DNA from: Vampirovibrio chlorellavorus
GTDB lineage: Bacteria > Cyanobacteriota > Vampirovibrionia > Vampirovibrionales > Vampirovibrionaceae
Direction: 5' to 3'
Assembly (NCBI GenBank): GCA_001858525.1
Contig: LAPX01000014.1
Coordinates: forward strand, 1 to 64,000
Length of the DNA: 64,000 nt
The translations under genes were made by a program, and so were the position numbers. Positions within the stretch are counted from its first letter, which is position 1. The number at the start of each line of letters is the position of its first letter. This document shows positions 11,400 to 17,795 of this stretch, one piece after another. Under the pieces are notes generated by a model. That model was not told the origin of the DNA, did not search any database, and saw only the letters and a list, made by a program, of their open reading frames with translations.

Positions 11400-11858
11400 A
11401 TGAGCATGGGCGGTACCAGTCTGGAAGTGATTTTGGTGGGCGTCACCGCTGCCATTAGCGCCCAGTTGCTCAAATGCCTGATCAACTTTGTGTATCGCAA
11501 GCCGGTGGACTTTCGGTTGCTGGTACATACCGGCGGAATGCCCAGCTCTCATAGTGCTTTGGTGGCCAGCGTGGCCACCAGTGTTGGCCTGATTGACGGC
11601 TATCGCTCCACCACCTTCGCCGTGGCCTTTACCCTGGCTGCCATTGTCATGTACGATGCCGCCGGATTGCGCCGGGCCGCCGGAAAAATGGCCGGTATCC
11701 TCAACCGCATCACCGAAGATCTCTACATCCATCGCCCGGATCATGTGCCAGACCGCCTACGGGAATTGCTGGGCCATACCCCGGTGGAAGTCATCGCCGG
11801 AGCCCTGTACGGGGTATTCGTGGCCTATCTTTACCGCATTCAGCTCGGCGGCGTATGA
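11400..11858 (+). CDS. Divergent PAP2 family (DUF212/YuiD-like) membrane protein
   Basis: This about 152-residue protein belongs to the DUF212 family related to PAP2 phosphatases. It has the conserved HTGGMPSSHSALVASVATSVG block, ending in the phosphatase-like SSH, then MYDAAGLRRAAGKMA and LGHTPVEVIAGALYG. Four hydrophobic segments are visible. Family members are thought to act on lipid diphosphates, but no substrate is established. The ATG at 11400 (or 11406) is preferred over an upstream TTG at 11382. The stop overlaps the start of the GH6 gene by four bases (ATGA), so the two are co-translated. It follows ispA, hinting at an isoprenoid-phosphate role (inference). Confidence 0.88.
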   Translation: MSMGGTSLEVILVGVTAAISAQLLKCLINFVYRKPVDFRLLVHTGGMPSSHSALVASVATSVGLIDGYRSTTFAVAFTLAAIVMYDAAGLRRAAGKMAGILNRITEDLYIHRPDHVPDRLRELLGHTPVEVIAGALYGVFVAYLYRIQLGGV

Positions 11859-13084
11859 GCGTTCGGGCTATGAAGCCAGTGCTGTTCATTCTGAGTGGAG
11901 CCTTTCTTTTCCTGCTACTGGGCTGGACCTGGTCAGAATTGCCTCGCCCCAGCAGCCAGCTGGCCCCCATCTGGAGCAACAGCTATAAACTCTACGCACG
12001 GGCCCATGCCATTTGGCTGGATCGCTACGATGCAGTGGGGACCAACCTGCCCCTGTTGCAAAAAACCTTACAAGCGGCGGCCAAGGCCAAACAAATCCCG
12101 GAGCTGGTCATTTACGCCATCCCCTTGCGGGATTTGGGACAGGCCTCTGAAGGGGGCTTTGCCACCTATACTGACTACTGGGCAGACAACCAGAAAAACG
12201 CGGCGCTGATCGCTCAATTTCACCAGGCCACGGGGATTTCGCCGGTTATTTACCTGGAGCCGGACAGCTTGCCCCTGGCAGTGCAATATTGCCGCGATGA
12301 GGGCAACAGCGCTGAAGCCACCGGCATTTACGCGGAACGGGTGCGCATCATGCGAAAACTGATTCCCCTTTATCAGCAAGCCGGGGCCAAAGTGTATCTG
12401 GAAGCCGGACACAGCGGCTGGTTTGACTACGGGGATGAGGACATCCAACGCATCGCCCAAGCCATGATTGAAGCCAACATCGCTCAGGCCGATGGCTTGG
12501 CCACCAACGTTTCCAACCGACAACCGGTGGATCAGGAAGCCCACTACCTGCGCCGCTTATTGCCCCTATTAAAACAGCCCCGCCTCAAACAGCCTGGGCT
12601 GGATGTCCGAGTAGACACCAGTCGCAACGGTGGAAAAACCAAAGCCCGGCAATACTATCTGCATCCCAAGGGGCTGCTGATTGATAACGAACACCCCACG
12701 GGTCGCTGGGTGGGAACTTGGCAACCCGATGACCACGGTGTCATACTCCTGAAGCCTTTTTTCGGGAAGTCCCGCGCCTTGGCCCGCTTGACCGAGAAAG
12801 AAAAGTACACTTACGACGCACGACGGAACATATTGAGCGCTCCCCCTTGGCTGGATGCGGTGGGCGATGTCAAACTGGGGCCTGCTCCCAGCGATCAGCC
12901 ACCGGAGAGCGTAAGCGATGTGATTGGGCATTTTCGGGATATTAAACCGCCCGATGACTGCGATGGGGCGCTTAATTGCCCTCCGGGGGCCTCCAAGCAA
13001 AGCATTTGGCAGGAAACAGCCAACCGGCAGGGCCAACAGCAATGGACGGTACCAAAAGGCCTCTGGAGTCCCAGCCAGCCCTAA
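11855..13084 (+). CDS. Glycoside hydrolase family 6 (cellulase-like), membrane-anchored or exported
   Basis: The 409-residue protein matches GH6 endoglucanases/cellobiohydrolases, which cleave beta-1,4-glucan with inversion. Motifs in order: VIYAIPLRDLGQASEGG with the conserved Asp, PVIYLEPDSLPL with the general acid Asp, VYLEAGHSGWFDYG, DGLATNVSNRQP, DTSRNGGKTKA with the third conserved Asp, and IKPPDDCDG in place of the usual KPPGESDG. An N-terminal hydrophobic segment (residues 8-24) acts as signal or anchor. The C-terminal 40 residues are Gln/Pro-rich. It overlaps the DUF212 gene by 4 bp. A plant or algal cell wall is a plausible substrate, but a self-produced glucan cannot be excluded. 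Confidence 0.85.
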   Translation: MSVRAMKPVLFILSGAFLFLLLGWTWSELPRPSSQLAPIWSNSYKLYARAHAIWLDRYDAVGTNLPLLQKTLQAAAKAKQIPELVIYAIPLRDLGQASEGGFATYTDYWADNQKNAALIAQFHQATGISPVIYLEPDSLPLAVQYCRDEGNSAEATGIYAERVRIMRKLIPLYQQAGAKVYLEAGHSGWFDYGDEDIQRIAQAMIEANIAQADGLATNVSNRQPVDQEAHYLRRLLPLLKQPRLKQPGLDVRVDTSRNGGKTKARQYYLHPKGLLIDNEHPTGRWVGTWQPDDHGVILLKPFFGKSRALARLTEKEKYTYDARRNILSAPPWLDAVGDVKLGPAPSDQPPESVSDVIGHFRDIKPPDDCDGALNCPPGASKQSIWQETANRQGQQQWTVPKGLWSPSQP

Positions 13085-15567: not shown

Positions 15568-16773
15568 TCAATCCAGCAATTGCAAGCGCATGGCCCCGTC
15601 GTAAATCAACTCCAATTGCAGCGCCTCGCCCTTTTTGACAAACCGGGTGGCGGGCAACGTGTAAATAAGATGCGTCCAATGGGTAGGCGGGGCCCAGGGG
15701 GAATTGGTCAGCACGGTTTCCGCATCCAGATGCGCTTTGAAATAACCGCAAAAACTGGTAATCGGACCGTCTTCTTTGGCCACCAACTCGAACCGGGTGA
15801 CAAAAGCCGGGTTTTCCAGAGTCATAAAGTCGATGGCCTGAACCAGTACCGGATCAGTTACCGCCTTATGCAAGGCCGTATTGAAGCGATCCAGCCGCAT
15901 GGTGGCCTTACCGCACAACACATGGCCCAACATGGTAAAGTCGATGCCGTAGAGGTCCTTGAACTCCTCCACTTCCTCCCAGCGGCTTTGATGCAGCCCG
16001 CAGTCAAAGCCAAAGAAGTAAATATCCAGTCCACAGGGGATCATTTGCGCACCGGGCGCTAAAAAGCGACGCCGGGCATCAATGGTGAACTCCAGCACGT
16101 TCTCTTCCAGAATGCCGTTGGCCAGAATCTCGGCCACCAGCAGATTGGGTTTGGGCTGTAAGCGCTCCTCGCTGATATGACTGGAGGCCCCTTCCACAAA
16201 CTCGATTTGAGTATCCAGACCGTTGGCCTTGGCCAGTTGTTCAGCCAAATAAATAATATCAGAGCGGCGTTCAATGGCAAAAATCTTACGGGCACCCGCT
16301 TTAGCGGCGAAGAAAGACAAAACCCCCGAACCACAACCCAAGTCCAGGGCGACGGTCTCCGGGGTGACAGCCCGATCAATGGCCCGGCGATAGGCGGCCA
16401 TGCGCACGTAATCCCGCAGCATAACATGGTGATTTTCCACGTTGATGTGGATATTTTTCCCCAATGTCTCGGACAGTCCGCTTTCTGAGGCCACGGCGGC
16501 TTCGGCTTCATCCGTAATGACAATGCGGCTGGCATACAGGGTTTCTAGATGGGCCTTGATTTTCTCCTGATCGCCCGGTGGCCAGGGTTCCACCAGCTCG
16601 CCCACGCTCTTCCAGTGAATCAACTCGTACAGAATGAGCATGATGTCGTACTTAATGCTCAGACCGTCATCGGAGTGAATATTTTTCAGCAGGATATGCT
16701 CGCCGCCATCGTACTTGAAGTAGGTTTCCGGGTTCAGTTTGACCCTGGTTTTTAAATCCTGAAATTGAGCCAT
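15568..16773 (-). CDS. PRMT-like SAM methyltransferase with PqqD-like N-terminal domain
   Basis: The C-terminal two thirds resemble protein arginine methyltransferases: MLRDYVRMAAYRRAI before motif I LDLGCGSGVLSFFAAKAGA, FAIERR, a double-E-like loop AEILANGILEENV with Glu nine residues apart as in PRMT1, and a THW-like PPTHWTHLIYTLP. Residues about 10-95 (numbered from MAQFQ) start RVKLNPETYF and look like a PqqD-type winged domain, which in other systems binds leader peptides. That N-terminal assignment is inference. ATG 16773 follows GAGAGG by six bases. The gene lies 11 bp downstream of a GNAT gene, so the two probably act together. The substrate is unknown; PRMT-like enzymes are uncommon in bacteria. 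Confidence 0.8.
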   Translation of the reverse strand: MAQFQDLKTRVKLNPETYFKYDGGEHILLKNIHSDDGLSIKYDIMLILYELIHWKSVGELVEPWPPGDQEKIKAHLETLYASRIVITDEAEAAVASESGLSETLGKNIHINVENHHVMLRDYVRMAAYRRAIDRAVTPETVALDLGCGSGVLSFFAAKAGARKIFAIERRSDIIYLAEQLAKANGLDTQIEFVEGASSHISEERLQPKPNLLVAEILANGILEENVLEFTIDARRRFLAPGAQMIPCGLDIYFFGFDCGLHQSRWEEVEEFKDLYGIDFTMLGHVLCGKATMRLDRFNTALHKAVTDPVLVQAIDFMTLENPAFVTRFELVAKEDGPITSFCGYFKAHLDAETVLTNSPWAPPTHWTHLIYTLPATRFVKKGEALQLELIYDGAMRLQLLD

Positions 16774-16784
16774 CAGTCGCCTCT

Positions 16785-17795
16785 CTAACACCATTTCCCG
16801 GGTTGAAACGCCCGCAGTTTTTCCCGCGTCAAATACAAATGCGGATAGTTGTACTCTTCTCGAAAACCCAGCCGCCGATACATTTTAATGGCCCGGATGT
16901 TATCCGTGTCTGTGGTGGCCTTAATCTTCAAAATACTGTTTTGCTCGGCCACCATGTCCTGCACGGTGCGCACAATACAATCTTTCAGCAGCAGGCTGCC
17001 CAGCTTTTTCCGGCGCTCGCCGGGCTTGATGCCAATCAGCGGAATATGCGCCTCCATCAAGCTATCCTGTAACAAAAAACAGAAGCCCACCGGCTCCCCG
17101 TTTTTGAGCAAAATACTGGTACAACGGGGCAAAAACTTACCCATCAACCCCGTGGTCATCAAACCCACCACCTTGCGGGCGCCAGACAGCGTGCGAAAAC
17201 GAGGGTCCCACAGGCTGTCCACGGCATTTTGAAAAGCCTCATGAATGCACTCAGCCACAGCTCCGGCATACTGCGGCTGCCAGCAATCCAGCTGATACTC
17301 CGTCTCCAGTGGTTCAAAGACCTGTTGCTGAAAAATCTGCAAACTGATGCTGTCGGTCAAATCCAGACAAAACTGGGCCTGCCCGATGGGTTTGAATCCA
17401 TACCAGGGCAGCGTTCTGACCAAAGCGTCCTGCGGGCCCAACATGGCGTAACTGACCACGTCCCAGCACTCGGTTTCCCGGTTGTCGGCAATAAAAAGGC
17501 GAATCAGCCGATCCGTGACCGTTTTCAGGTCATCCACTTCCACGTAAATCAGGTTAATTTCAATGGCCCGGTGCTCTTCCTGCCGGTACAACATCAGAGC
17601 AATGGGCTCTGGAGTGGCCGTATCTTCCACCCAGTAGCCGTACAACAGATTACGGGACAAGGATTGAACCAGCGTCTCAAAGGCGATGGGCTCATGGGCC
17701 CACCGGTACTCCGAAATGGCCTTTTGACAAAAGCGCTCGTAAAGACCCCGCAAGGCATCCACAGTGTCTGTCGTAATGCGATGGGCCTGTATCAT
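16785..17795 (-). CDS. Two-domain GNAT N-acetyltransferase
   Basis: This 336-residue protein appears to contain two GNAT folds. The C-terminal one is clearer: ILLKNGEPVGFCFLL, then the acetyl-CoA pyrophosphate loop region IGIKPGERRKKLGSLLL (the usual R-G-x-G-x-G/A is altered to R-K-K-L-G-S), and TDNIRAIKMYRRLGFREE. The N-terminal half (residues 1-150) has a weaker GNAT-like pattern including ETECWDVVSYAMLG and LPWYGF. It is directly upstream of the PRMT-like gene with an 11-bp gap. The acetylated substrate is unknown; double-GNAT proteins include mycothiol synthase-like enzymes, but nothing specific supports that here. Confidence 0.82.
   Translation of the reverse strand: MIQAHRITTDTVDALRGLYERFCQKAISEYRWAHEPIAFETLVQSLSRNLLYGYWVEDTATPEPIALMLYRQEEHRAIEINLIYVEVDDLKTVTDRLIRLFIADNRETECWDVVSYAMLGPQDALVRTLPWYGFKPIGQAQFCLDLTDSISLQIFQQQVFEPLETEYQLDCWQPQYAGAVAECIHEAFQNAVDSLWDPRFRTLSGARKVVGLMTTGLMGKFLPRCTSILLKNGEPVGFCFLLQDSLMEAHIPLIGIKPGERRKKLGSLLLKDCIVRTVQDMVAEQNSILKIKATTDTDNIRAIKMYRRLGFREEYNYPHLYLTREKLRAFQPGKWC

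Follow-up and report, generated by a model that had tools for sequence, protein, structure and literature searches.

This locus raises the question of what an arginine N-methyltransferase of the PRMT type, found mostly in animals and plants, does in a little-studied nonphotosynthetic relative of cyanobacteria, where it appears to be fused to a domain resembling a RiPP-type recognition element (RRE) and sits next to an acetyltransferase. In the window (the whole 64,000-nucleotide stretch that was analyzed, from a Vampirovibrionales genome), both open reading frames are on the minus strand. The upstream gene encodes a tandem GNAT acetyltransferase of 336 amino acids (16785..17795), and the downstream gene encodes the RRE-like/PRMT fusion protein of 401 amino acids (15568..16773, read from the ATG at 16773), with 11 bases between the GNAT stop codon and the PRMT start codon, just as the first-pass annotation had described them. 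A Shine-Dalgarno-like AGAGAGG is located about 6 bases upstream of the ATG at 16773; an alternative in-frame ATG at 16794 would yield a protein of 408 amino acids and a 10-base overlap with the GNAT gene. The two genes are presumably expressed from one transcription unit. A scan for promoters and terminators returned 5 and 8 consensus sites, respectively, versus 2.0 and 4.0 expected, and was not used as evidence. Genes near the pair in the window encode CoA-transferase subunits, a penicillinase-repressor-type regulator, a helicase, and a GH6-family glycosyl hydrolase (window positions 11855-13084); as context for the last of these, the organism is related to an algal predator.

The identity of the methyltransferase core (residues ~113 to 390; 15604..16437, minus strand) was examined in several ways. 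A search of PDB sequences matched PRMT1, PRMT3, PRMT7, and PRMT8 over residues ~113 to 390, with E values down to 9.9e-28 (PRMT1). A profile built from 11 orthologs matched PRMT1 with an E value of 1.7e-44 over profile positions 120 to 390, with the double-E and THW loops aligned, and the window protein scored 42 bits against the Pfam PRMT_C model, for which the cut-off is 27. Both glutamates of the double-E loop (E215 and E224; 16102..16131, minus strand) and the T364-H365-W366 residues of the THW loop (15676..15684, minus strand) were invariant in the alignment of all 11 orthologs. A Rossmann SAM fold and a PRMT barrel were found together with a significant profile match. By sequence, then, residues ~113 to 390 are a real PRMT with intact catalytic residues, and the PRMT assignment made by the first-pass annotation held. 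The window protein shares with the type I-like enzymes PRMT1, PRMT3, and PRMT8 the catalytic core and barrel, motif I, the double-E loop, and the THW loop; it differs from them in its N-terminal, predicted RRE-type domain, in its place in a bacterial gene pair, and in having no recognizable YFxxY helix. The YFxxY motif lies in the helix before the core in eukaryotic PRMTs and is a refinement that was not treated as defining here. No such motif was visible in the ortholog alignment, in which the corresponding stretch reads HINVENHHVML.

Arginine chemistry requires both double-E glutamates and the THW residues, and the acceptor of this core would be arginine. It could be argued that the core, although shaped like a PRMT, acts instead on another acceptor (RNA, a small molecule, or a residue other than arginine), given that YFxxY was not seen and that PRMT-fold relatives in lasso-type clusters (see below) have changed catalytic loops, so that the fold may perform other tasks. 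The invariance of both glutamates and of THW among the PRMT fusion orthologs speaks against this possibility, which we regard as very improbable.

The N-terminal region (residues ~9 to 92; 16498..16749, minus strand) was examined with AlphaFold2, which was run on six sequences. Among five models, the overall pLDDT values were 76.8, 76.0, 64.1, 48.9, and 44.8, with only the first two confident; over residues 1 to 90 of the PRMT fusion, pLDDT was about 84. DSSP assignment of the model gave strands at residues 10 to 13 (extra and short), 17 to 21, 26 to 31, and 38 to 41 and helices at residues 42 to 52, 57 to 61, and 66 to 81, and the predicted fold is a beta3-alpha3 winged helix. RREs led the lists of fold matches. 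They stood at the head of the Foldseek results, where the best E value was 2.6e-3 and none was below 1e-3, and the top VIA-align matches were TigE (Z 10.3; rmsd 4.1; 93 residues aligned) and the PbtF RRE (Z 9.7; rmsd 2.4; 81 aligned), followed among the RREs by MibB (9.1), NisB (8.7), ThcOx (8.7), MccB (8.3), TbiB1 (8.1), and LarB1 (7.3), with PqqD itself at Z 7.0 (rmsd 2.8; 84 aligned). Since VIA-align Z values below 8 may reflect only a common arrangement, the case for an RRE depends on the highest-scoring matches and on the fact that these all belong to one kind. Residues ~9 to 90 are therefore predicted to adopt an RRE/PqqD-type fold, shared with PqqD, the PbtF RRE, TbiB1, NisB, MccB, and TigE.

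Sequence comparison gave a different picture. Neither the window protein nor any other scanned ortholog matched the Pfam PqqD model (PF05402), and NCBIfam likewise gave no PqqD match. An N-domain profile searched against PDB sequences returned chance matches only (best E value, 0.36). When the N-domain was compared by HHalign with PqqD domains from Cyanobacteriota genomes (23 domains, after two cut ones among 25 loci had been dropped), 76 columns fell in register at a score of 15.4, which was not significant: 13 of 200 column shuffles reached that score, 0 of 200 aligned 70 columns, and GNAT slices used as controls scored higher (up to 18.2) over 16 columns. The first-pass annotation had likened the N terminus to PqqD and had proposed comparing its predicted structure with PqqD/RRE folds. 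That comparison yielded an RRE-type match, so the predicted fold is not unlike PqqD; the likeness stood in the predicted fold, but it found neither a Pfam match nor a significant HHalign score. The domain is thus RRE-like as modeled and not proven to be an RRE by sequence or function. It is present in all 11 full-length ortholog rows, where its mean pairwise identity of 51% lies between those of the methyltransferase fold (62%) and the C-terminal barrel (46%); this conservation, together with a dN/dS of 0.064 for residues 1 to 95, argues for a functional domain.

Binding of a peptide by the RRE-like domain would fit its predicted fold; however, winged-helix domains can also serve in dimerization or nucleic acid binding. 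The main rival explanation is that the enzyme modifies an abundant housekeeping protein, ribosomal or otherwise, and that the winged helix serves for dimerization or for docking on a folded target, as in NO66, MINA53, and YcfD, rather than for leader-peptide capture. The winged-helix domains of these ribosomal oxygenases were the other enzyme family to recur in the fold lists (MINA53, Z 7.9; NO66, 6.6; YcfD, 4.8). The YcfD entry is titled ribosomal oxygenase, and that of a Rhodothermus relative (4csw) is titled L16 arginyl hydroxylase. The PRMT gene, moreover, is single copy in the searched genomes and lies outside any biosynthetic cluster. All of these enzymes modify proteins and carry a similar winged-helix domain, but they are oxygenases with that domain at the opposite, high-numbered end of the chain, whereas the window protein is a methyltransferase with an N-terminal domain. 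RREs also outscored the ribosomal-oxygenase domains, and we consider this explanation unlikely, although it deserves weight.

The distribution of the two genes bears on whether their association is meaningful. PRMT-type proteins occur in few genomes of the phylum: PRMT_C was detected in 9 of 386 genomes, with two hits from the window's family and the remaining seven from beyond the class, and in 0 of 14 control genomes. PRMT matches elsewhere in the phylum span the core only. Within the order, the PRMT fusion was found in 12 of 18 genomes and in 10 of the 12 with at least 90% completeness and at most 5% contamination; it was absent from all four genomes of the family designated f44, and the two other order genomes lacking it are 76% and 78% complete. 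Full-length orthologs occur in other genera and families. By coordinates, the GNAT and PRMT genes were adjacent in 11 of the 12 PRMT-bearing genomes, and in the twelfth (G389) the PRMT gene is cut by a contig end, so the neighborhood on which the first-pass annotation had staked its proposal was conserved. GNAT was directly followed by PRMT in nine of nine PRMT loci examined, the distance from the GNAT stop to the longest PRMT open reading frame ranging between -10 and +42 bases; beyond the pair, no neighbor was conserved across families at these nine loci. In comparisons of the window with its nearest relative (G398), dN/dS was 0.04 for PRMT (0.034 for the core) and 0.10 for GNAT, showing that the pair is under strong purifying selection. 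Because orthologs are present in other genera and families and dN/dS is low, the pair is more than a chance association.

A tree was built from 24 rows without the partial G389 sequence, after trimming the Vampirovibrionales proteins at their N termini and removing residues 1 to 515 from an Eleftheria protein. The Vampirovibrionales fork (97/100) comprised 11 rows plus a very long plasmid row from Azospirillum, unresolved inside the fork. Seven plasmid records were retrieved, none of which matched the N-domain, and of the four that were opened, those read were TPR-type or divergent as judged by eye. No homologue was found on viral contigs. The Vampirovibrio lineage includes a known predator of Chlorella, and a eukaryote-like PRMT in such a lineage might suggest a secreted effector that acts on the algal host. 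Its presence in two-thirds of the order genomes (12/18), joined to a class-wide GNAT, and an N terminus predicted to be a folded domain make such a role highly improbable.

The acetyltransferase has a broader distribution. Its structure model (pLDDT, 87.7) aligned across its whole length with tandem GNATs, namely MAB_4324 (Z 22.7), MshD (21.2), and the clavulanic-acid tandem GNAT (20.6). Pfam detected Acetyltransf_1 in the C-terminal half only, and the N-terminal half is a GNAT by predicted fold. Two GNAT folds are thus predicted in one chain, in agreement with the two-domain acetyltransferase originally proposed. The same organization is found in VipF as well as in the three proteins named above (identity at the best Z, 12%). 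A sequence search of the PDB at an E value of 0.1 retrieved none of the four, and, in contrast to them, the window GNAT belongs to a class-specific family. The gene was found in 83 of 194 genomes of a phylum sample, all 83 within the window's class, and in 295 of 382 genomes of that class, mostly without PRMT. GNAT is thus the wider and probably the older gene, downstream of which the PRMT fusion sits in two families. The further idea of an obligate modification pair is not supported by these counts, given how often GNAT occurs without PRMT. At 7 of the 11 PRMT-less loci examined (L065 and L067 to L072), GNAT sits after two genes reading as ribE-ribBA, which we take to encode riboflavin synthase and RibBA; this suggests a class-specific link between GNAT and riboflavin genes.

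The next alternative to be weighed is a role in RiPP tailoring, in which the PRMT fusion would modify in trans a small precursor peptide whose gene lies at another place in the genome. No RiPP genes were found beside the pair at the PRMT loci examined. A comparison of 940 small open reading frames around nine pairs revealed no conserved candidate precursor; cross-genus matches that could be placed were other frames or strands of conserved neighbors (DinG helicase and CoA transferases), and none was common to all families at the nine loci. The short conserved open reading frames sought near orthologues at the suggestion of the first-pass annotation were thus not found at these loci, and a RiPP-style peptide pathway is therefore without local support. 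No PqqD gene exceeded the cut-off in the 18 order genomes. In having no RiPP genes or conserved small open reading frame found next to it, in giving no Pfam PqqD match, and in being fused to a PRMT, the N-domain differs from the RREs that it is predicted to resemble.

The RiPP alternative draws on the modeled RRE-type fold and on PRMT-like enzymes encoded in lasso-type clusters of photosynthetic cyanobacteria. Three of the nine PRMT-like loci outside the class (L123:3126-9635, L121:1413-6679, and L120:4876-9962) adjoin lasso-peptide-type genes, in varying combinations of a PqqD-type RRE, an asparagine-synthase-like cyclase, a precursor-like open reading frame, and an HPrK-like gene. These enzymes (373 to 388 amino acids) have a PRMT-like core, as does the window protein. 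In L120 and L123, however, the PqqD-type RRE is a separate gene nearby, whereas the RRE-like domain of the window protein is fused. Their catalytic loops are also altered: the double-E loop is changed in all three (for example, SDLRG replaces the first double-E segment) and THW is changed in L121 and L123. Because of these altered loops, and in keeping with their position on a separate side of the tree, they constitute a different branch, and the one thing that they demonstrate is that a PRMT-like gene can have an RRE gene as its neighbor; since they do not retain all of the double-E and THW residues, they are not near counterparts in function. The near-uniform presence of the PRMT fusion in two families is likewise unlike that of patchy RiPP clusters, and we judge a RiPP tailoring role to be quite unlikely. 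The lasso-cluster enzymes also carry a C-terminal tail whose helical half is weakly PqqD-like (PF05402 E value of 0.037, in L123 only).

The explanation that we favor, with modest confidence, is that the fusion protein is an arginine N-methyltransferase with an RRE-type domain for substrate capture and that it is a housekeeping enzyme expressed in one transcription unit with the class-wide GNAT. The RRE-like domain would most likely hold its dedicated substrate, a protein or peptide presumably encoded at another place in the genome, by a short recognition segment and would present it to the SAM-dependent PRMT core (PRMT1/3/8 type), which would then N-methylate one or more arginines of that substrate. 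The PRMT fusion gene occurs singly in its genomes, in two families, and does not belong to any cluster, which makes a housekeeping protein a likelier substrate than a RiPP. The gene itself would have been passed on vertically in these two families of the Vampirovibrionales as a housekeeping gene. GNAT probably works on its own, acetylating an amine substrate, which might or might not be the PRMT target as well; the link between the two genes is positional, and a functional link may accompany it. More tentatively, the locus may represent a hitherto unrecognized bacterial system of arginine methylation, in which a RiPP-type recognition element, taken up in a setting other than secondary metabolism, confers substrate specificity on a PRMT in two families of this nonphotosynthetic order, in an operon with a class-specific GNAT that possibly shares the substrate.

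By sequence, the window protein is a true PRMT; its accessory domain, whose fold is predicted, is of a new type. In the PMC literature, as far as it was covered, no paper was found that describes a PqqD/RRE domain linked to a PRMT or that deals with the window gene, and the term PRMT was absent from the parts consulted of two RRE surveys (PMC12710340 and PMC7470986), the latter of which treats RREs as markers of RiPP biosynthesis. If correct, the PRMT-RRE fusion would extend RREs from such markers to ordinary protein modification and would provide a small system, open to experiment, in which to study how arginine methyltransferases find their targets. For genome miners, it would be a caution that an RRE fold alone does not mean a natural-product cluster. 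The combination of a PRMT and an RRE-like domain beside an acetyltransferase suggests a previously unrecognized protein modification system.

Two other candidate readings were considered and dropped. RRM proteins as RGG-type substrates showed no correlation with PRMT, as one was present (E value, 1e-5) in 6 of 12 PRMT-bearing and in 6 of 6 PRMT-lacking order genomes. A role in defense was abandoned when PADLOC gave only a methyltransferase-domain match to mad2 at 43 bits. The RRM proteins themselves (L083 to L104) have two RRMs in tandem in the matched f1 and f43 genomes, whereas those of the f44 family have a single RRM and glycine-rich tails. A Tropicibacter plasmid (L107:4835-6981) carries a GNAT gene directly upstream of a PRMT-like gene, with no kinship to the window pair implied. 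Finally, a cyanobacterial locus (L118:5226-6332) encodes a PRMT1-like protein (PRMT_C, 88 bits), upstream of which lies a gene for a 372-amino-acid protein with no Pfam match at 0.001.
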